Of a stretch of 36,321 nt of DNA, positions 1 through 27,464 are shown piece after piece. Both the position numbers and the translations under genes were made by a program. Within the stretch, counting starts at the first letter, position 1. Each line of letters begins with the position of its first letter. The DNA is from a virus. The stretch is taken from positions 1 through 36,321 of IMG/VR virus record IMGVR_UViG_3300027996_000090. The stretch is one strand, 5' to 3'. Under the pieces are notes generated by a model. The model was given only the letters and a program-made list of their open reading frames with translations. It was not told the DNA's origin and did not search any database.

Positions 1-207
1 ACAACTGTCTTGACCCAACATTGTTTGACCACCATAAGTTACAGCATACAAAGGTGCCATAGTAGGCAAACTATTTCCAGTTACTGGTATTGCTATTTCT
101 AATTGCATTTGTGAACCTATTGTGTAAGTCATGTTTGAGTCACATAATGTTTGTGCTTGTGTTTGTAGTCCTATTAAGACTAGTACTGCTAGTAAAATTC
201 TTTTCAT
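1..207 (-). CDS. secreted protein, N-terminal part (runs off window)
   Basis: An open frame of 69 codons starts at the ATG at 207 and runs to the window edge without a stop. It begins MKRILLAVLVLIGLQ and has a clear Sec signal peptide: a Lys-Arg N-region, a hydrophobic core to about residue 14, and a likely cleavage after the QTQA motif near residue 18. The mature part starts QTLCDS and looks like extracellular Bacteroidetes beta-rich sequence. It is the last of four tandem secreted genes (2031 down to here), separated from the previous one by about 110 bases. No Shine-Dalgarno is obvious; an A-rich stretch precedes the ATG. Function unknown; its C-terminal domains lie outside the window. Confidence 0.75.
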   Translation of the reverse strand, partial: MKRILLAVLVLIGLQTQAQTLCDSNMTYTIGSQMQLEIAIPVTGNSLPTMAPLYAVTYGGQTMLGQDSC

Positions 208-318
208 TATTCTTCTTTTTTTTTAATTTAGTTATTATTCCACATAATAAGTAGTAAAAATAAACTTGGTTGTCTAGTCTTAAAGTATTTTTGGTTTTCT
301 AAGTCTTACACATTCAAC

Positions 319-852
319 CTACCTTATCAAGGTAACTTGTCCTGTGTAGTGTTGGTTGTGAGTTCTAATTGAGTAAGCGTAAACCCCTATCTGACATCCC
401 CTACCATCCCAAGGAGTGTTATCGGTGGTTTCATATACTTTATCACCCCATCTATTATATATAACCATAGATTTTATTTCACCCCCATCTCTACCATGCA
501 CATAAAATGTTTCATTGTAGTCGTCTCCGTTGGGTGTGAAAGAATTAGGTACGAAGATTTGTAGGTATGGGCAATCTTCTACTATTACCTCGTGATAGGT
601 GGTGTCACCATCACAACCAAATCTGGTTGTATGTACAGATAAAATGTATGTACCTATAGAGTTAGGCCATTGTACGGTAATAGAATTATTATTATTATAC
701 AATATTTCCCCACCTGATATATCCCAATAATATACCTTATTCACATCATAACTTACTTGGTAATTTTGTGGAATTAGTTCACCACAATTAGTGTATGTTT
801 CTTGTGCAAATAATTGTAGTGGTAGTAGTAGTATGTATACTAACCACTTCAT
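319..852 (-). CDS. secreted PKD-like protein with CHU_C / type IX (type B) sorting domain
   Basis: A 177-residue protein with a signal peptide (about residues 1-16, ending LQLFAQ). Then comes a PKD/Ig-like segment (about 20-92, with YYWDISGGEI and TVQWPNSIGTY). The C-terminal part, from about 100, matches the gliding-motility-associated C-terminal (CHU_C) domain: VPNSFTPNGDDYNE, then VIYNRWGDKVYE, then PWDGRG and a final VTLIR strand. In Bacteroidetes this domain directs proteins through the type IX secretion system to the surface or medium as a type B signal. The stop is TAG at 319. The ATG at 852 follows the TAA of the upstream gene with one base between, so the two are probably translationally coupled. 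I infer that the host's own secretion system exports this phage product. Role unknown: an adhesin, superinfection exclusion or a change to the host surface are all possible. Confidence 0.85.
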   Translation of the reverse strand: MKWLVYILLLPLQLFAQETYTNCGELIPQNYQVSYDVNKVYYWDISGGEILYNNNNSITVQWPNSIGTYILSVHTTRFGCDGDTTYHEVIVEDCPYLQIFVPNSFTPNGDDYNETFYVHGRDGGEIKSMVIYNRWGDKVYETTDNTPWDGRGCQIGVYAYSIRTHNQHYTGQVTLIR

Positions 853-853
853 A

Positions 854-1396
854 TTAAAAGTGTTGTATTGGTCCTGTTACTGGTCCGTTATTTACAACAA
901 CATTAATAGTTGTGTTACACCCTGCCATTGAGTAGGTTAGTACGTAATTACCTACACCAGCTGTTGATGGGTCAAAGTTGTTACCTGCTACACCAGTACC
1001 AGTCCACACTCCACCAGCAGGATTACCTACTAATGTCGCAGATGGGTCACCAGGACAAAAAGGTCCTATAGCATTACTTGATAGGTCTAATACAAAAATA
1101 TCAAGTAGTACTGGTAATCCAGGACATCCCGCTGCATTTGATTCTACTACACCAATAGCGTTGAGGTATAGTCCAGATACTCCACCCCAATCTACTGTAA
1201 TTAAGTCTGTTCCTTGTCCTGTTTGTAAAACTCCACCACCACCTGTTACCGTCCAGTTATATGTTGATGTTGGTGTGTTAGTTACAAAATATTGCTCTCC
1301 TGTTGCATTTGCACATACTGTGTCTGGGTTGATTGTTGTTTGTCCGTAAGTTGTTAACCCGAAGCAAACTAATAGAATTGTAAGTAATTTTTTCAT
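854..1396 (-). CDS. secreted PKD/Ig-like beta-sandwich protein
   Basis: A 180-residue protein with a signal peptide (MKKLLTILLVCFGLTTYGQ), then PKD-like sequence (YNWTVTGGGG, ITVDWGG, residues about 35-80), and a second Ig-like repeat with conserved cysteines (FCPGDPSATLVG to the TYSMAGCNTTINV strand, about 112-168). Such domains are typical of large Bacteroidetes surface proteins exported by type IX secretion. No sorting domain is present, so it may be held by or co-exported with the next gene, which has one. It sits between two other secreted genes in the same direction. It could instead be a virion decoration protein, though the signal peptide argues against that. Function not known. Confidence 0.75.
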   Translation of the reverse strand: MKKLLTILLVCFGLTTYGQTTINPDTVCANATGEQYFVTNTPTSTYNWTVTGGGGVLQTGQGTDLITVDWGGVSGLYLNAIGVVESNAAGCPGLPVLLDIFVLDLSSNAIGPFCPGDPSATLVGNPAGGVWTGTGVAGNNFDPSTAGVGNYVLTYSMAGCNTTINVVVNNGPVTGPIQHF

Positions 1397-1420
1397 AGTT
1401 TTTGTTTTTTTTGTTTATGT

Positions 1421-1454
1421 TTTGTCCAGTTTTCTCGTGAATAAACTGGACAAA
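1421..1454 (-). other. perfect 12-bp inverted repeat between secreted genes
   Basis: The arms 1421-1432 and 1443-1454 are exact reverse complements (TTTGTCCAGTTT), with a 10-base loop. The hairpin starts 7 bases after the stop codon of the gene at 1462-2031. On the minus strand it is followed by A-rich rather than U-rich sequence, so it is not a classical intrinsic terminator. It could stabilise or separate the mRNA segments, or work as a terminator with a different downstream signal. Confidence 0.6.
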
Positions 1455-1461
1455 GTTATTA

Positions 1462-2031
1462 TTAATAATGATAAATACTTGATGTATTTATTAAGTCTGG
1501 TGATACTACTCCGTTATATATTTGAAATGGTGGGTCCGTACAACAATTTCCATTACTCCATCCTCCTGTTGTACAATCATCAAACACCTCCATACTAATA
1601 CTTAAATCATCTGGTGTACAAGTAGGTCCTACGGTTACTTGAAATGACATTATGAACGGTCCGGTTGACGAGGTACCCCAATCCGGATTTCCAAATGGGT
1701 CTGTGTTTATAAATCTCCAACCTGGTCCAAAGTTTAAACCACCTGGATAAGTATGTTGTAAGTCCCATTGCCAATTACCAGTTGAGCCACCTGGATTTGC
1801 AGGAGCGGATAGTGGAGTCAAGTTTGTCCATCCAACACCTAAGTTTATTTGAAATGCGTGAATCCAGTTTACATTTATTCCCGTAAATGTACCTAGTGTG
1901 TACCATACAGTTACAACTTGACCAGGTGAGTATGTACCTCCTGGTGATACTACAACAGTTTCATTAGAGACACATTGTGAATAAGTGGTAATGGTAAAAA
2001 ATACCAATAATATTGTTAACATTTTCTTCAT
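1462..2031 (-). CDS. secreted protein of unknown function
   Basis: A 189-residue protein with a signal peptide (MKKMLTILLVFFTITTYSQ) very similar to that of the next gene. The mature part has motifs seen in Flavobacteria extracellular proteins: a GGTYSPGQVVTVWYTL strand, WIHAFQINLGVGW, a WQWDLQ segment and several cysteines (CTPDD, DDCTT, NCCTD). It is the first gene of the secreted cluster. A TATTTATA box lies 4 bases upstream of its ATG, and an intrinsic terminator lies just beyond that, so the cluster has its own transcription start. I do not recognise a domain with known activity. Confidence 0.75.
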   Translation of the reverse strand: MKKMLTILLVFFTITTYSQCVSNETVVVSPGGTYSPGQVVTVWYTLGTFTGINVNWIHAFQINLGVGWTNLTPLSAPANPGGSTGNWQWDLQHTYPGGLNFGPGWRFINTDPFGNPDWGTSSTGPFIMSFQVTVGPTCTPDDLSISMEVFDDCTTGGWSNGNCCTDPPFQIYNGVVSPDLINTSSIYHY

Positions 2032-2035
2032 ATAC

Positions 2036-2043
2036 TATAAATA
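2036..2043 (-). promoter_or_regulatory. TATTTATA box, 4 bases before ATG at 2031
   Basis: Exact TATTTATA on the minus strand, in the context TATATTTATAG, separated from the start codon of the first secreted gene by 4 bases. It is one of nine exact copies oriented with a gene. If it is a -10-type element, the transcript would start at or near the ATG. Confidence 0.5.
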
Positions 2044-2095: not shown

Positions 2096-2320
2096 CTCAG
2101 GAAGGGGTTTCAATTTAATTTTAGTAATTGTTAAGATTGCGGTAATCTTCCTTTCATATGTATAAGCGGTTTCCCGCGAACAGTTTTAATCTTCTGGGTA
2201 GTCAGAATCATTTTTTTATTCCTAGTTTATTTTATCGTCAAGGTGGGGAATAATATCCACCTCTCTCTCTTGGTTTTGTTTTTAGTTGCCGAAGAGATTC
2301 TTTGGTCTACCCATTAGACC
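2068..2320 (-). ncRNA. structured 3' RNA after the TROVE-like gene (candidate)
   Basis: About 250 bases without an open frame hold five consecutive hairpins on the minus strand. The first, 2304-2320 (GGTCTA/TAGACC), spans the TROVE gene stop codon. The second is 2241-2262 (AGGTGG/CCACCT, with a purine-rich AGAGAGAG run just 5'). The third, 2166-2177, is a GCGG/CCGC stem closed by a GAAA tetraloop. The fourth is 2133-2149 (AAGATT/AATCTT, loop ACCGC). The fifth is the terminator. The ACCGC loop could also pair with the GCGG arm of the third hairpin. It could be a structured 3' untranslated region or a separate small RNA. The Ro/TROVE link to Y RNAs makes an RNA partner worth considering, but I see no diagnostic Y RNA sequence. 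Confidence 0.4.
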
Positions 2321-3753
2321 TTGATTGGTTCATATCGAGCGGACCCGATAGTCTCCATCATCATTTTGTAAGGGGTAAGTTCCTCACAGCTTAAGATACT
2401 TTTCATGATTGAGGGTGAGAATCCTGATACCAATGCTGTCCCCATCTCGTCGAAACTAGTTGGTACATTGTCTTGTCTACTTTGGATATTCCAATAAACA
2501 ATCCCTGGCATTTCGTAACCAGCTTCCTCATACATCCCTTTAATCATTTCTTGTGCAGTTGGGTTCCATTTTGAGACGCTTTCACCTCTCCAGTCACTAC
2601 TGAGTGCTGTATCAAATTCCATATCCGAAAGGATAAGAACTTTGGTTGGCATCTCCGATAGTGGAACATTGTGTTTTACTGCTTGGTCCAAGATTAACTT
2701 AAACGTTGCTTGTAAATCAGTATTCATCCCCCAGTCTGCTCTCTCCAGTTGGTCTAGCCTGTCGGCTAACGAACCTTCGAGTAATTGTAGTTGTGGTCTC
2801 GAAGAGAATGTTATAAATGCGTTTTTGAAGACACCTTCATTTCTCTCTGAGATATACAGCCCCAATGATGTTGAAACATCCATACAGCTAACGTTACCGT
2901 TATTCCCTGCTGGATTTGTCATTGAACCTGAAGTATCAACTACTGGTAATACTCTTTCATTAATATCTTCCATGTAATTTGGAAGAGATTCCCATTGTGC
3001 TTGTGCAACATCTTTTTCTCCACCATATTTAATGGATTTAGTGATGTCATAAGGGTATACAGCTCCAGCGTTAATAGTAGTTTTACCACTAACTAAAGCT
3101 CTTTTGTACTCCTCATACCTCTCTTCGTCATTATTCATAAAAGATTTCTGATACCTTGACGAGGCTAGGGACGGAAGTTTCGAATAGTCGATACTTGACC
3201 AGTCCTTTGCACACATCTTGGTTTCAACCACATTTGTAAGTCCTACTAATAACTTACGGTAAGATTTTGGTGAGACTCTAAGGTATCTACGTATAATGTT
3301 AGCCTTGGTACCTTTTCTAGGCATCCATTTTGCACATAGTCCGTCTTCCTTCTCCAATGCTGTTTTAACCAGATTTAGTGCGGAATCCCAACAATTCTGG
3401 GTTCCTACTAGAGTTAACACATCATCCCACCTACCATATTCACTAATTAAGTGAATGTTTTTATGTAAAACTTCTCTGTGATTTTCACACAACCATAATA
3501 AACAATCTCTGAAGATTTGTCTCTCACCAGCTCCACCACGGACATCACGTGTCCAAAAAATAATTTTAATTGTTGTGAGAGGGTCTTCATTAAAAGCTTT
3601 CGAAACCTTGGCGAAAAGTTTCTCTTTACTCGCACCACGCATCGCTCCTATTTGAAAAAATAGATTGACACAGTGATTAAGTGAGGATGAGTTTGTTGTC
3701 ATTCCGTTCTCAGTCAATGTATCTTTTTGTTGTATGGCGTCGATTAAATTCAT
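2314..3753 (-). CDS. TROVE/Ro60-like vWA protein (DUF2828-like)
   Basis: A 479-residue protein. The N-terminal half (about 25-250) is an alpha-helical repeat region like the TROVE/DUF2828 ring: FFQIGAMRG, then KIIFWTRDVRGGAGERQIF (63-81), the SEYGRWDDVLTLVG repeat (104-117), and KWMPRKGTKANIIRRYLRV. The C-terminal part is a von Willebrand A domain with the metal-site motif DTSGSM (Asp273, Ser275, Ser277), the threonine region NTDLQATF, and an ILSDMEFD strand. In the Ro60 family the ring binds the ends of misfolded or Y RNAs. RNA binding is inferred here from family resemblance. It stands alone between a tRNA-like element and a row of RNA hairpins. The start is the only good ATG, with A-rich sequence ahead of it. 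Confidence 0.8.
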   Translation of the reverse strand: MNLIDAIQQKDTLTENGMTTNSSSLNHCVNLFFQIGAMRGASKEKLFAKVSKAFNEDPLTTIKIIFWTRDVRGGAGERQIFRDCLLWLCENHREVLHKNIHLISEYGRWDDVLTLVGTQNCWDSALNLVKTALEKEDGLCAKWMPRKGTKANIIRRYLRVSPKSYRKLLVGLTNVVETKMCAKDWSSIDYSKLPSLASSRYQKSFMNNDEERYEEYKRALVSGKTTINAGAVYPYDITKSIKYGGEKDVAQAQWESLPNYMEDINERVLPVVDTSGSMTNPAGNNGNVSCMDVSTSLGLYISERNEGVFKNAFITFSSRPQLQLLEGSLADRLDQLERADWGMNTDLQATFKLILDQAVKHNVPLSEMPTKVLILSDMEFDTALSSDWRGESVSKWNPTAQEMIKGMYEEAGYEMPGIVYWNIQSRQDNVPTSFDEMGTALVSGFSPSIMKSILSCEELTPYKMMMETIGSARYEPIKV

Positions 3754-11418: not shown

Positions 11419-11754
11419 ATGAATGTTATTTTAAATAAACAAGTTCTCCCATTAGAGATTAAATCTTCTCCTAACTCTATTAGTACAGGTATGATGGGTA
11501 GAGAATTTCTTAATGGTGGAATGTTATTTCTATTCTCAGAAGTGTCCGAACGTTCTTTCTGGATGAAAGATTGTTTAATTAGTTTGGATATAATTTTTAT
11601 CATCGAAGATAAGGTTACTAAGGTTCATAGGAATTGTCCACCCTGTAATAAAAATAAATGTAACTCTTACTATGGTATAGCTAATAAGGTTTTGGAGGTT
11701 CCTTCTGGAAAGTACTCGGTAAGTGAAGGTGATGTTTTAAATTTTACTGATTAA
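11419..11754 (+). CDS. DUF192 protein
   Basis: A 111-residue protein matching the DUF192 family: STGMMGREFLNGGMLFLF (about 21-38), then RSFWMKDCLISLDIIFI, then VHRNCPPCN and SYYGIANKVLEVPSG, ending with SEGDVLNF. I chose the ATG at 11419 rather than 11365, because the first 18 codons of the longer frame are out of character and cover the TATTTATA box. It is one of three plus-strand genes and its end overlaps the convergent DHH gene by 11 bases. DUF192 is common in phages and bacteria; its activity is unknown. The CPPC and the following cysteine could bind metal. Confidence 0.85.
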   Translation: MNVILNKQVLPLEIKSSPNSISTGMMGREFLNGGMLFLFSEVSERSFWMKDCLISLDIIFIIEDKVTKVHRNCPPCNKNKCNSYYGIANKVLEVPSGKYSVSEGDVLNFTD

Positions 11755-13186
11755 TACTAGATTTAATTTTACTAACCAGTTCTTTTTGTACCCATTTAAC
11801 AAACTCAACATACCTTGTAGGTTTACTGTCTGATTTTTTCTTCCAAGTACCTTTTTCTGGATTTCTAGTTGCTCTACTAAAGAAATTAAGTCCACTAAGA
11901 TTTGTTATACATTTATGACCACCACTATTAGCCTGAATAACGTCCCAAGCAGGTACTTTGATGTTATCTAGAACTGTTTTTTGTTTTTCACTTAGACTAT
12001 CCCAAGGTGAATCTATTATATTAACCGCCATGTTATAATATTCTGAACTTTCTTTTGGCATGTTTTGTAGATGGTCTTTATATAAAGCAAATAAATCTGA
12101 CGTTTTAAAACCGATACTATCATCATCTGCTTTGGTTTCACCCACCCTTTTAATTACTGATATAGGTACCATGTGTGCTTTTAGTTGTGGTTCTATTGTT
12201 TTAAGAACCTCTTGAGCTATATCACCTAAATTTACACCCTTTAGTGCTCTATCCTTTTTAAATGGGTTACAAGAAGCTTGTACTAAACCCATAGGCCAAG
12301 CTATAACTAAAAAATCAGCCTCAGGATAAATTTTAAATGGTGTGTACCTATCATAAGACCCTGGTTTAAATAAAGCACCCCCACCGTATTGTACAATAAT
12401 ATTACCTTCTAATTTTAAATTATTACTTTTCTTTTGTGATTCAATATAACCAGCCTGATTTTGTGCCATATCTTCTGGAGATGCAAATCCTTTTTCTTTT
12501 GCGTATGAATTTATGTTTTGGTATATATTCATTAGCGATGGTGTTGAGTTCATCACTAGGTTTTCTAAAAATCCTGGTTTATTTTTATAAGCTAGTAGTA
12601 ATTTATTAGTTAGTAACCCTAACATCCATTTCTTTTCGTATGTTTGTTCTCCCTTTTCAAAATCCCTAATTAAGTTCATAACTTGTTCAGGTTCAATATC
12701 GTGTTTTGCGTAGTCTGCTGAATCTACAGTATTAATCATCATAATATCTTCATTACTAAAAATATCACTAGGGCTTATAGTTTGTGATATGGTTTCCACA
12801 TTAGACCTTGCACCTCTAAATTGTGTTGCGGTATCATCCTCAACCCCAGCCTGTGAGTCATGATGGTCAGTATGAATTTTAAATATTGGTTTACCGTGTG
12901 CGAAATCTACTAATACTGGCATTACGTCCCCACTAGCATCTGGTTTTTTAACAGAAAATTCTTTATCTCCGTACTGTATCACATGACTACCAATAACCTC
13001 TATTCCATAATTTTCTAAATAGTTTTTCATACCTAGTGCGGATACTACACCATCTAGGTCTTGGTGAAAATATATTTCAGCTTTAGGGTATCTTTGTGCT
13101 AACTTGTTAATGTCTCTAATCCCACCTTCATTTAAAAGTGACTCATTAATACGTTCTAATTGTTGTTCTGTTATCTCTATTTTCAT
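11744..13186 (-). CDS. DHH-family phosphoesterase with N-terminal tag
   Basis: A 480-residue protein. Motif I is IYFHQDLDGVVSA (39-50), matching the DHH family D-x-D-G-x-x-S. Motif III is KIHTDHHDS (103-111). The C-terminal NSGGHKCITN (420-429) fits the DHHA1 substrate-binding GGGH motif. The family includes RecJ and nanoRNases, so a role in degrading short RNA, DNA or a dinucleotide signal is plausible. The first 20 residues (MKIEITEQQLERINESLLNE) form an amphipathic tag like that on the next gene, the lysozyme. The LNE-G at 19-21 fits the T4 prohead protease pattern (L/I)xE. It is longer than usual, with a central insertion. Confidence 0.75.
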   Translation of the reverse strand: MKIEITEQQLERINESLLNEGGIRDINKLAQRYPKAEIYFHQDLDGVVSALGMKNYLENYGIEVIGSHVIQYGDKEFSVKKPDASGDVMPVLVDFAHGKPIFKIHTDHHDSQAGVEDDTATQFRGARSNVETISQTISPSDIFSNEDIMMINTVDSADYAKHDIEPEQVMNLIRDFEKGEQTYEKKWMLGLLTNKLLLAYKNKPGFLENLVMNSTPSLMNIYQNINSYAKEKGFASPEDMAQNQAGYIESQKKSNNLKLEGNIIVQYGGGALFKPGSYDRYTPFKIYPEADFLVIAWPMGLVQASCNPFKKDRALKGVNLGDIAQEVLKTIEPQLKAHMVPISVIKRVGETKADDDSIGFKTSDLFALYKDHLQNMPKESSEYYNMAVNIIDSPWDSLSEKQKTVLDNIKVPAWDVIQANSGGHKCITNLSGLNFFSRATRNPEKGTWKKKSDSKPTRYVEFVKWVQKELVSKIKSSINQ

Positions 13187-13190
13187 ATTA

Positions 13191-13198
13191 TATAAATA
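13191..13198 (-). promoter_or_regulatory. TATTTATA box, 4 bases before ATG at 13186
   Basis: Exact TATTTATA in the context AGTATTTATATAAT on the minus strand, squeezed between the lysozyme stop (13201) and the DHH start. Confidence 0.45.
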
Positions 13199-13200
13199 CT

Positions 13201-13764
13201 TTACAATCCTTCTATAAATCTCTGGTACTCTAATTCTCTCCTTTTAACTAGACCTGGAAATTTCTTGCTAACTCTATATCCCTTAATACTGTCAGCAGCT
13301 TGTTGGATTTTATCTTTGTCTATGGTCTGTGAATCTTTTAATAGAGCTATCACGTCAGACCTTCTTATACCCCCAGCTCCACCATTATACGATAACGATA
13401 ATAAAGCGTCAAACATACCTTGGGTTATTAGTATGTTTATTCCTTTTTTATTCCAGTCGGTAAAAATTTTTCTTAATTTATTAGCGTGATACGTAGAATC
13501 TTCTCTTAGTAGTGTAGTGGCTTCTTTTTTACAGTTTTTACCATCACCTAAAATATCACCTTTTTTAACGCCTTCAGTATGACCATAACCAATTGTCCAT
13601 TTTCCATCACCAATATCATAAGCTTCACATTCTAAACTTTCTTCTTTTCTTACGTGGTCCCAGTACCACTGTGAAGCTGTTAACTCAACAGCTTGTTTAA
13701 ATTGGCTGGTATCCAGTTGTTCTGAAATTAAGTTTAGTTGTGTTTCTGAAATTATAATACGCAT
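13201..13764 (-). CDS. GH24 phage lysozyme (endolysin type) with N-terminal tag
   Basis: A 187-residue muramidase. The catalytic region EESLECEAYD (41-50) aligns with the T4-type E-G-x-R-x-x-x-Y, making Glu42 the likely acid. It is followed by GDGKWTIGYGHT (52-63), with the Asp and Thr of the E-D-T triad, and ends with the usual GLVKRRELEYQRF. Residues 1-20 (MRIIISETQLNLISEQLDTS) precede the catalytic domain and resemble the tag of the DHH gene. ISE-T and ISE-Q fit the (L/I)xE part of prohead protease sites, but T4 gp21 prefers a small residue next. The tag could mean a virion-packaged lysozyme rather than a free endolysin. A strong hairpin lies just upstream (13768-13802). Confidence 0.9.
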   Translation of the reverse strand: MRIIISETQLNLISEQLDTSQFKQAVELTASQWYWDHVRKEESLECEAYDIGDGKWTIGYGHTEGVKKGDILGDGKNCKKEATTLLREDSTYHANKLRKIFTDWNKKGINILITQGMFDALLSLSYNGGAGGIRRSDVIALLKDSQTIDKDKIQQAADSIKGYRVSKKFPGLVKRRELEYQRFIEGL

Positions 13765-23364: not shown

Positions 23365-23916
23365 TTATTCGTATTTACCACCTACATTAGACCCCATACT
23401 AAATATTTTTCCTATTGGGGTATTCATTTTGGTTTTTGGTCCTAACATGGATGTTATGGGTGATTTGTAAATACTTCTTCTTATAATCTCCTCTAAATCT
23501 TTTTTTACTAATTCTTTTATATAATCTTTGTTTTTCCCTGTTTTCTTTGCAACTTCATCTATCACCCTTTGAATTTTACTGTTTTCTGTTAGGTCTAGAG
23601 CGTTTATATCTCCTTGGTTACAGTATGGGAACTTTTTACATTTGTCTTTTATTTTAACAAATTTACCTCCTGGCCATTGTGTTTTTGCCCCACCTCTCCA
23701 ATTTTTTTTGTCTTTAGCCCACATTTGTGGTGTTAAATATTGTCCAGCACTTGCTGATGTTGTAGCCTCACCAACTTCCTCTTGTTTCTTTTTCTTTTTC
23801 TTTTTAAATCTAGGGTCAGCACCCAATGGTACCATAAAAGCACCAGCACTAGCAGAAGTTGTGGCTTCACCCACTTCTTTTTCTTTTTTCTTTTTAGTTG
23901 TGGTGAGGGGAGCTAC
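23365..23916 (-). pseudogene. C-terminal part of interrupted GEATTSASAG-repeat protein
   Basis: Reading on in the same frame after the TAA at 23917, the sequence continues VAPLTTTKKKKEKEVGEATT and so on to the stop at 23365. It carries two more copies of the repeat EVGEATTSASAG (23836-23877, 23737-23778), lysine runs, then YLTPQMWAKDKKNWRG, a KCKKFPYCNQGDINAL segment and a helical end. The last part resembles the 'Y.TP..WAK...FPYCNQGDI' proteins of marine phages. The first start codon in this part is a GTG at 23872, inside a repeat, with no ribosome signal. So it is probably the C-terminus of the upstream gene, made only by readthrough, or dead. Confidence 0.6.
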
Positions 23917-23958
23917 TTATTGTCCTGAACTTGCTGATGTAGTAGCTTCACCCACTTC
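23737..23958 (-). repeat. three EVGEATTSAS(A/S)G repeats
   Basis: Three near-identical 12-residue units: 23917-23958 (ends SSGQ then TAA), 23836-23877 (ends SAGAF) and 23737-23778 (ends SAGQY). They are separated by lysine-rich linkers. The VGE-A in each is close to the (L/I)xE-A/G/S cleavage pattern of T4-type prohead proteases, which suggests release peptides. That is inference. Confidence 0.7.
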
Positions 23959-24153
23959 CTCTTCTGTTTGTTTTTTCCATTTTGAGTGTGTCATGTCTGG
24001 GTGTGCTTCTTTACAAGATGTTCCTTTGTGTGTTTTCATTTCTTTTTTTTCTTCTATATTTTCAGAGTTTTTAAGTAAGGATTTATACCACATTTTATCT
24101 TTTCCTTCTATAGCTTTATTTAAACTTTTTTCAAAATTGTCTTTAATGCCCAT
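23917..24153 (-). CDS. N-terminal part of interrupted GEATTSASAG-repeat protein
   Basis: A 78-residue frame: helical start MGIKDNFEKSLNKAIEGKDK, then THKGTSCKEAHPDMTHSKW, then the first repeat EEEVGEATTSASSGQ and a TAA stop. In the third repeat the matching codon is Tyr (GQY), so a single T-to-A change at the last base of a TAT codon, or C-to-A of TAC, explains the stop. The frame stays open downstream. The ATG shares a base with the stop of the 80-residue gene (TAATG). Product unknown; possible internal virion protein. Confidence 0.65.
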   Translation of the reverse strand: MGIKDNFEKSLNKAIEGKDKMWYKSLLKNSENIEEKKEMKTHKGTSCKEAHPDMTHSKWKKQTEEEVGEATTSASSGQ

Positions 24154-25628: not shown

Positions 25629-26155
25629 AGTAATTCAAAATTAAATGATGGGTTTATGTCCGTCCAGTATTCGTTGTAATTACTTCTTGAGACAATACCT
25701 TTAAAATTTTCGACCCCATCAACTAAAACATTATGTCCAATAAAATTTTTAGGTATTTTTTCTTTATCACAAACTTTTTTGATTAGTTTTAAAGCACTTT
25801 TCATTTGTTTTTCACTATAGCCATCCCAAAAGTATTTACCTCTCCATTTTTTCTCATGGACTTCATTATTATAAATATCCCCTAACCAGTTAACAAACTT
25901 ACCATCTTTACTTCTTTTTTTTAACCAACCCATATTTTCTAAACAAATAATAACGACACCTTTATCTGTATAACCATCTAAATAATGTGAAGTTACATCT
26001 TTTTTATTTAAATTATGAACTTTACCACTTTTATCAATTAGGTAATTGGGTATTTTTTTATACTCCCCATTTAGTCTTATTTTTAATGATTTTAGGAAAT
26101 CTTTTTGGTTTCTATTACTATTACATAGTAGAATTTGTTTATTTTCTACCTTCAT
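25625..26155 (-). CDS. amidase-like peptidoglycan hydrolase, possibly altered active site
   Basis: A 176-residue protein resembling the N-acetylmuramoyl-L-alanine amidase family (Amidase_2 / T7 lysozyme fold) seen in large phages. IPNYLIDKSGKVH (35-47), where the family has an H at the N37 position. VVIICLENMGWL (67-78, Glu73). KKWRGKYFWDGYSEKQ. KNFIGHN (136-142, His141). GIVSRSNYNEYWTDINPSF (153-171). One zinc-binding His, expected at 37, is Asn here, so the enzyme may be weak, use another ligand, or act only in binding. It sits two genes from the spanin-like genes, which fits a lysis role. Confidence 0.65.
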   Translation of the reverse strand: MKVENKQILLCNSNRNQKDFLKSLKIRLNGEYKKIPNYLIDKSGKVHNLNKKDVTSHYLDGYTDKGVVIICLENMGWLKKRSKDGKFVNWLGDIYNNEVHEKKWRGKYFWDGYSEKQMKSALKLIKKVCDKEKIPKNFIGHNVLVDGVENFKGIVSRSNYNEYWTDINPSFNFELL

Positions 26156-27464
26156 ATTTAAGTGTGTTTTTATCTTTAGAATCTTTAGTTTTAACTATTT
26201 TATGTTCTAGTGTTTGTGTTGTGTCTGTTAATCTGTCTAGCTCAACATTTTCGTCACTATACTTAATATTAAGTACTTTAGCTAATTTTTCAAGCTCTTC
26301 TTTAGTTGGGTTTATGGGTATGATTTCTTCTTTTATTTCTGTTTTACCAATCTCTCTACTTAGTTCGTTTAACTCTTCATCATTTAGGTCTTTTTCCGAG
26401 TTAATTACCCTAACCTTATCTTTTTTATTAACTATTAGTGTTTGTGTTGTATCTGTTAACCTATCTAATGGTGTGTCTATATCGTCATAGTGTAAACCAT
26501 CATTGCCATTTTGTCCAATAACATTCATTCTTTTTTCATCTATATTTAATTCTTCTCTTGGGGTATCTTCCATGTCATCCATTACTAAGTCTTTTTTTTC
26601 TATCGTATATGGTCTATTAAATTCCATACCCTCTGGTACTGACATTCTAACAACAGGTCTATTCTTTTTTATTTGAGCAAATGCCATATTAGCCGCTACT
26701 ACTAATGCTATAGCTAATGGGTCAAATACAAATATAATAAGTAATAAGAACCAGTTAACAACTTCGTTCATAGGTTTACCTGTAGTTTCTGCTAAATATT
26801 TTAATGGGCCTAGTTCACTTTCAGCTTCATTAGACATCTCTTTATCTAATAATGCCATATCAGTTTTGTTAATAGAATCCATTACAGCCTCTATTTTAAT
26901 ATTAATACCATCTCTATCTGCAATTGTAGTTTTTAATTCAGATTGTAATGCTCTTCTTGCTGAACTAGATGTGGATGTGATGACTGTTTCAGAATTTTTA
27001 TCATACCATGATACTTGTTGTGGGTTAGATAATGATATCCTTAAATCAGAAATAGATTTGTTTATTTGAGTTTTTTCAAGTGTTAAGTCTTCTTTTGTTT
27101 CTTGAAACCTGACTTGCTTCTGATTAAGAATCATTAATGACTTATCTAATAGTTCTGACTGAGTAGCGGTTGATTGATACGCTCCTGATAGAAACCCATA
27201 TATACCACCTGATGTTATTAATATTAAAACAAAACAAGCTATCGCTAAATATGTTCTTAACCACTTATTTATTGTGTCCCAGTATTGGTACAGGAGTGAA
27301 GCTACAACTAGTTTCGCAAATTCTAATGAACCAGCCATTATTATAACTTGTGTACTTGCACCAGCAAATAATTTACTTAACCCAAACACAGAATAGAAAG
27401 CTGCCGAACCAGAAACCGCTACAGCAGATAAAGCTATTAGTAATGGAAATAATCTTTTTTTCAT
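26139..27464 (-). CDS. membrane protein with periplasmic coiled coil and acidic cytoplasmic tail
   Basis: A 441-residue protein. Three helices in the first 95 residues (about 5-27, 38-60, 72-95), a long helical stretch (about 98-220), a fourth membrane helix (about 237-262, FLLLIIFVFDPLAIALVV), then a disordered acidic tail of about 170 residues. The tail contains the unit LDRLTDTTQTL twice (333-343, 409-419). Similar proteins with this order recur in large Bacteroidetes and marine phages, without known function. It may remodel the host membrane or respond to superinfection. It overlaps the amidase gene by 17 bases. A near copy of the TATTTATA box (TATTTATC) precedes the ATG. Confidence 0.65.
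   Translation of the reverse strand: MKKRLFPLLIALSAVAVSGSAAFYSVFGLSKLFAGASTQVIIMAGSLEFAKLVVASLLYQYWDTINKWLRTYLAIACFVLILITSGGIYGFLSGAYQSTATQSELLDKSLMILNQKQVRFQETKEDLTLEKTQINKSISDLRISLSNPQQVSWYDKNSETVITSTSSSARRALQSELKTTIADRDGINIKIEAVMDSINKTDMALLDKEMSNEAESELGPLKYLAETTGKPMNEVVNWFLLLIIFVFDPLAIALVVAANMAFAQIKKNRPVVRMSVPEGMEFNRPYTIEKKDLVMDDMEDTPREELNIDEKRMNVIGQNGNDGLHYDDIDTPLDRLTDTTQTLIVNKKDKVRVINSEKDLNDEELNELSREIGKTEIKEEIIPINPTKEELEKLAKVLNIKYSDENVELDRLTDTTQTLEHKIVKTKDSKDKNTLKYEGRK
26208..26240 (-). repeat. tail repeat, copy 2 (LDRLTDTTQTL)
   Basis: Second copy of an 11-residue unit in the membrane protein at 26139-27464 (residues 409-419). It is identical at protein level to the copy at 26436-26468, with several silent codon differences, so selection on the peptide is likely. 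It may be a binding motif. Confidence 0.6.
26436..26468 (-). repeat. tail repeat, copy 1 (LDRLTDTTQTL)
   Basis: First copy (residues 333-343) of the unit in the cytoplasmic tail of the membrane protein. The residues before and after it differ from those around copy 2, which makes a simple recent duplication of the whole tail less likely. Confidence 0.6.

Follow-up and report, generated by a model that had tools for sequence, protein, structure and literature searches.

A phage-borne block of three putatively exported proteins, one with a type B T9SS sorting domain, related to an operon of Flavobacteriales

The stretch of DNA analysed here (the window) comprises the 36,321 nucleotides of a virus record (IMG/VR IMGVR_UViG_3300027996_000090), and carries at its left end four genes encoded on the minus strand. 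The first of them, S1 (1462-2031; 189 aa), encodes a signal peptide, a beta-rich domain and a short C-terminal tag; the second (854-1396; 180 aa) a signal peptide, a PKD_6 domain and a C-terminal tag (the PKD protein); and the third (319-852; 177 aa) a signal peptide, an Ig/PKD-like domain and a type B sorting domain of the type IX secretion system (T9SS), hereafter the CHU_C protein. The fourth gene (1-207) runs off the window end, so that only its 5' part, coding for 69 aa, is seen. All four open reading frames start with MK and run through a hydrophobic segment to an A/S/G-Q type end, as is typical of Bacteroidota signal peptides, these being judged from sequence and a hydropathy heuristic. 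By the same heuristic, the three complete homologues of S1, PKD and CHU_C in a 297-kb relative (contig G002) are positive (3/3), and signal-peptide starts are kept across the complete phage copies and the bacterial homologues. A sequence-only reading of this DNA had described a cluster of four tandem genes with Sec signal peptides: the four genes and their signal-peptide-like starts are indeed present, but the conserved unit is made of three genes (319-2031, the trio), to which the fourth is only sometimes linked.

The same reading had also assigned a CHU_C type B sorting domain to the end of the protein encoded at 319-852, and profile searches agree with it. The C-terminus of this protein (322-555, minus strand; VPNSFTPNGDD...IYNRWG...PWDGRG...GVYAY...VTLIR) matches PF13585 (E 1.5e-13, 51.1 bits for a curated Pfam cut-off of 27) as well as TIGR04131 (39.7 bits for a curated NCBIfam cut-off of 35), while a TIGR04131 search of 14 control genomes gave matches in none. 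The type A domain TIGR04183 was sought in the window without a match. Searching PKD models, which had been proposed together with CHU_C as a check, identified the PKD_6 domain in the protein encoded at 854-1396 (PF19408, E 2e-7). S1, on the other hand, has no Pfam, PHROG or NCBIfam match of note, and a sequence search of the PDB returned nothing for either S1 or PKD. The AlphaFold (AF2) model of S1 (pLDDT 79), in which the N-terminal helix is present, had no PDB match at E <= 0.001 in a fold search, and a single match in a viral library, to part of an 800-aa protein from Virus NIOZ-UU157 (60% identity over this segment); the model of the PKD protein was too poor (pLDDT 58) and was discarded. 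The NIOZ-UU157 protein (UniProt A0A7S9SUG9), a GEVED protein with an S1 domain, resembles the long bacterial form described below, and this record may therefore mix phage and host DNA.

S1 and the PKD protein are unrelated in sequence, and both terminate in I-x-H-[Y/F/N]-stop (I-Y-H-Y-stop at 1465-1476 and I-Q-H-F-stop, within TGPIQHF, at 857-868, both on the minus strand), a tag that is absent from the CHU_C protein. In G002 this tag is borne by 2 of 262 proteins, namely the S1 and PKD members of the trio, and across the viral loci (729 ORFs) it occurs on trio-type genes only. What is seen of the fourth gene product shares 52% identity with the beginning of a 265-aa protein that adjoins CHU_C in another viral contig (L028), its linkage to the trio being occasional, and its counterpart in G002 (g057) lies far away. 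A type A C-terminal domain was considered for its family and rejected, as the likeness was limited to a 'YDLLGRE...' tail seen by eye in the full 265-aa homologue of L028, with no TIGR04183 match at E <= 1 and no PF18962 match at E <= 0.01.

Is this gene block a regular component of phage genomes? Relatives of the CHU_C protein were found in five viral contigs, including G002 (297,623 bases), and the search for the same cluster in other phages, also proposed by the sequence-only reading, recovered the complete trio as a block in 16 other viral contigs, that is 17 with the window (two pairs of which have identical S1 sequences). Two gene orders occur, S1-PKD-CHU_C and PKD-CHU_C-S1. G002 is a jumbo myovirus encoding a terminase large subunit, portal, major head protein, baseplate wedge, tail sheath and connector protein; dozens of window genes have homologues in it, and its trio (290,040-291,744, minus strand) has the order seen in the window and is located far from the structural block. 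This full structural gene set in a relative upholds the attribution of the trio to a phage, and the position of the G002 copy fits the earlier remark that no structural gene stands beside the cluster, the one exception being a probable assembly chimera considered below. The S1, PKD and CHU_C proteins of the window are 63-83% identical to their G002 counterparts, and closer to them than to the bacterial copies. Two further contigs with the trio encode terminases that share 74% and 32% identity with the G002 terminase, so that the trio is common to divergent phages, and since dN is well below dS wherever dS can be estimated among phage copies, the trio genes are under purifying selection. No close copy of the trio exists among the described phages of INPHARED, where only two records of uncultured phages of about 640 kb (LR756502.1 and LR745206.1) gave distant single-gene matches: they contain remote relatives of the CHU_C protein, and one each of S1 and PKD, which are not grouped into a trio.

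Several other features are shared by these phages. The gene at 2314-3753 of the window encodes a DUF7788 and DUF2828 protein (PHROG 850, RNA-binding protein) that is 89% identical to its G002 homologue, a conservation exceeding that of most genes. The product of 26139-27464 in the window, a large membrane protein whose N-terminus is strongly conserved and which matches no family, is found in most trio phages, often near the trio. The peptide EATT[SA][AS]S[SA]G recurs in several proteins, sometimes twice per protein (e.g., window 23365-24153, and g106 at 81223-82119 and g278 at 284624-284992 in G002). Finally, an N-terminal pattern resembling 'IxITExQ..I..' is present in proteins encoded within 11744-13764 of the window and in about a dozen G002 genes, and is possibly a capsid-targeting sequence, by analogy with T4.

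A promoter-like motif, TATTTATA (2036-2043, minus strand), is positioned 12 bases upstream of S1 in the window, against 25 bases in G002. It precedes the first trio gene in five viral contigs (the window, G002 and three more) and not in the others checked, and is enriched about 19-fold upstream of G002 genes. Its shorter form, TATTTAT, stands before 24 of 66 genes of the structural block compared with 6 of 70 replication and glycosyltransferase genes in G002 (Fisher p = 1.4e-4, with blocks delimited by the analyst), and is not confined to structural genes. Enrichment before structural genes, together with its presence before the trio, suggests that the trio may be expressed late in infection. 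Against the reading preferred below, superinfection exclusion is usually an early function; this role, like the other three suggested by the sequence-only reading (altered gliding, attachment of cells to surfaces, decoration of the host), is conjectural.

Counterparts of the trio are also found in bacteria. Scanning bacterial genomes with the S1 alignment gave six positive Flavobacteriales assemblies, in which the S1, PKD and CHU_C genes form an operon that follows guaA and a LysM-type gene, with lolA-ftsK usually coming next on the opposite strand (these gene names were assigned from sequence by eye). Of 296 genomes of this order, 19 gave an S1 match, and these are without exception small (1.1-2.0 Mb). 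The window S1 is 52-60% identical to its bacterial homologues over the alignment, and the PKD protein 54% identical over its full length to bacterial proteins of two genomes (G260 and G063). Bacterial proteins are mostly much longer than those of the phages (200-938 aa for the first gene, 190-575 aa for PKD and 353-427 aa for CHU_C), and first-gene proteins contain SprB-like repeats, as recognized by eye. The closest bacterial PKD relatives, from two genomes, are 190 aa long and have the same TGPIQHF end; in these two genomes the first operon gene codes for a different protein in which the tag is kept. Two bacterial sequences fall inside the viral group of the S1 tree with moderate support, which is consistent with exchange between bacteria and phages. 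The position between guaA/LysM and lolA-ftsK is not shared by the phage trio, whose neighbours differ, and the trio is therefore a phage-borne derivative and not the chromosomal locus. Judged by these comparisons, it is a reduced version of a three-gene operon that these very large marine phages took from marine Flavobacteriales, their likely hosts as predicted from gene sharing and not from CRISPR spacers or culture.

The C-terminal tag follows the operon in bacteria as well, being limited to genes 1 and 2 in bacterial loci, in some of them in a relaxed P-I-x-x-N form. A search of the 296 genomes with a PIxHN-stop DNA pattern, informative only in the related (likely-host) family, was near background in large Flavobacteriales genomes; within the likely-host family, in-frame matches corresponded to genes of this operon type, several of them directly upstream of the next operon gene. 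This distribution suggests that the tag may couple S1 and PKD to the CHU_C protein.

How would such proteins leave the cell? Genes for the PorP/SprF shuttle (PF11751) are present in all six likely-host genomes (3-7 per genome) and in none of six phage records, and SprA is present in 9 of 10 bacterial genomes and in neither of the two phage records tested (the window and G002), these absences being firm only for the long G002, since the phage records are mostly fragmentary. A PorP/SprF-type protein carries type B cargo, which stays bound to it (PMC9143113), and an unlinked shuttle serves some of the type B cargos that have none adjacent (PMC12618676). Having no phage shuttle, the phage CHU_C protein would thus need that of the host. 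In silico evidence supports the view that the CHU_C protein resembles T9SS cargo and that the trio proteins look exported. The suggestion that the phage uses the T9SS of its host is partly supported: the CHU_C protein has the sorting domain, and likely hosts have the translocon and shuttle lacking in the phage records, while S1 and PKD have the shared tag and no T9SS domain.

The reading we prefer, to which we give a probability of roughly 0.5, is that Sec and the host T9SS serve the phage, late in infection, to put a minimal complex of host type on the cell surface, where it probably replaces or masks that of the host. Export, complex formation, timing and purpose are what we infer here, in the following way. 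Jumbo phages would keep and express, probably late, a compact host-derived S1-PKD-CHU_C operon, the three products of which would reach the periplasm through Sec. The CHU_C protein would then cross the host T9SS translocon on a host PorP/SprF-type shuttle and stay bound to it at the cell surface. S1 and PKD, without sorting domain, would probably be docked onto the CHU_C protein by their I-x-H-[Y/F/N] tag, in which case the three proteins would form one surface complex, a copy of the host complex minus its long repeat regions. Since the host encodes the same complex in a mostly much longer, repeat-rich form, the short phage versions would most likely compete with it or replace it, and infected cells would probably wear phage-made versions of their own surface complex. 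The most likely benefit would be reduced phage adsorption to this changed surface. In Flavobacterium columnare, mutations in sprA and gld genes lead to phage resistance (PMC9233685), indicating that T9SS-dependent surface features matter for infection. Direct replacement within the host complex is uncertain, as the identity between the CHU_C proteins of phage and host is only about 26-29%. A bolder version, which we advance tentatively, is that marine Flavobacteriales possess an undescribed T9SS-linked surface complex, in which two exported proteins lacking a sorting domain are coupled to a type B cargo by an I-x-H-[N/Y/F] tag, and that jumbo phages captured its minimal operon as a dominant, surface-remodelling replacement.

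The trio could instead serve adhesion, keeping the infected cell on particles or gliding, so that the phage would gain through its host and not by blocking rivals. The SprB-like repeats of bacterial first-gene proteins point in this direction, as does the only PDB match of the CHU_C profile, to the C-terminus of the Aureispira grappling hook protein; however, this match covers the sorting domain only, and the long repeat regions on which adhesion would depend are missing from the phage versions, which leaves an adhesive role unlikely. Titration of the shuttle is rather doubtful: type B export requires cargo and shuttle in stoichiometric proportion and the native shuttle is scarce (PMC12618676), so that a cargo from phages that have no PorP/SprF gene in the records searched might deplete the host shuttle and block host type B export without any functional complex, but this would leave unexplained why the tagged S1 and PKD always stay with CHU_C.

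It is improbable that the trio proteins are accessory structural components of the virion (fibres or decoration) with Ig/PKD folds and incidental signal peptides. In favour of it, virions often carry Ig-like domains, TATTTATA is found before structural genes as well, and in one contig (G004; L005/L029) the trio seems to be joined with a neck gene and a gene for a large structural protein. Against this, the signal peptides are conserved in complete phage copies and bacterial homologues alike, and the G002 trio is not encoded within the structural block. The G004 junction, moreover, fuses the first part of the neck protein in frame to the second half of the PKD protein, which marks this contig as a probable assembly chimera, and it was rejected. 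Lastly, a host-chromosomal or chimeric origin of the window's left end can practically be set aside: the trio does have a chromosomal counterpart, but it also occurs in a phage contig of 297 kb and in 15 further viral contigs, among neighbours unlike those of the chromosomal locus, and the window copy is closer to phage than to bacterial copies.

Surface display by way of a captured host complex, the reading favoured here, can be compared with several known systems. Cryophage, a Bacteroidetes phage from cryoconite, encodes T9SS type A cargo proteins, for which use of the host system and superinfection exclusion have been suggested (PMC7468147). As with the trio, sorting domains are thus encoded on a phage genome (that of tailed phages in the case of the trio), but those of Cryophage are of type A, belong to enzymes and to a PA14 protein, and vary between phages (PMC7468147), whereas the trio is of type B, forms a conserved three-gene block and has an identified host operon. 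T9SS sorting-domain proteins of Bacteroidetes phages are also known from crAss-BACON phage clusters, near head genes (PMC6949934); these are linked to BACON repeats and head genes, while the trio has neither a BACON domain nor structural linkage. The guaA-linked operon of Flavobacteriales shares with the trio three co-directional genes in the window's order, the same tag on genes 1 and 2 and a type B domain on gene 3, and differs from it by its mostly much longer proteins and by its context, from the guaA/LysM genes to lolA-ftsK, which is absent in phages. The sprC-sprD-sprB-sprF gliding operon of Flavobacterium johnsoniae likewise combines exported proteins with a type B cargo (SprB), but SprB is giant and has its cognate SprF there, while no SprF was found in phage records. 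Among open-licence articles, no report was found of a phage type B cargo, of such a captured three-gene operon or of the shared tag; phage-borne T9SS cargo of type A is known, and its type B, whole-operon form appears to be new.

If the preferred reading holds, Bacteroidota phages would have a recurrent route to the exterior of the infected cell, combining the host T9SS with a captured host operon instead of single enzymes. How proteins without sorting domain may assemble with type B cargo is an open point in T9SS biology, for which the shared C-terminal tag offers a testable handle, and the trio also exposes a conserved and so far unnamed surface operon of uncultured marine bacteria.

Other putatively exported proteins were noticed. 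G002 (L013-L014) has at 32099-43320 an exported block made of a TonB-dependent receptor, a lipoprotein, a thioredoxin-like protein that starts with a signal peptide, and a protein of 1321 aa in which a complete type A T9SS domain scores 44.5 bits. A type A domain (PF18962, 41.4 bits) is also present in a 1028-aa protein of another trio-bearing contig (L039, 3027-6113), and two adjacent CAP (cysteine-rich secretory) proteins with signal peptides, one above and one below the Pfam cut-off, are encoded at 891-2005 of L026.
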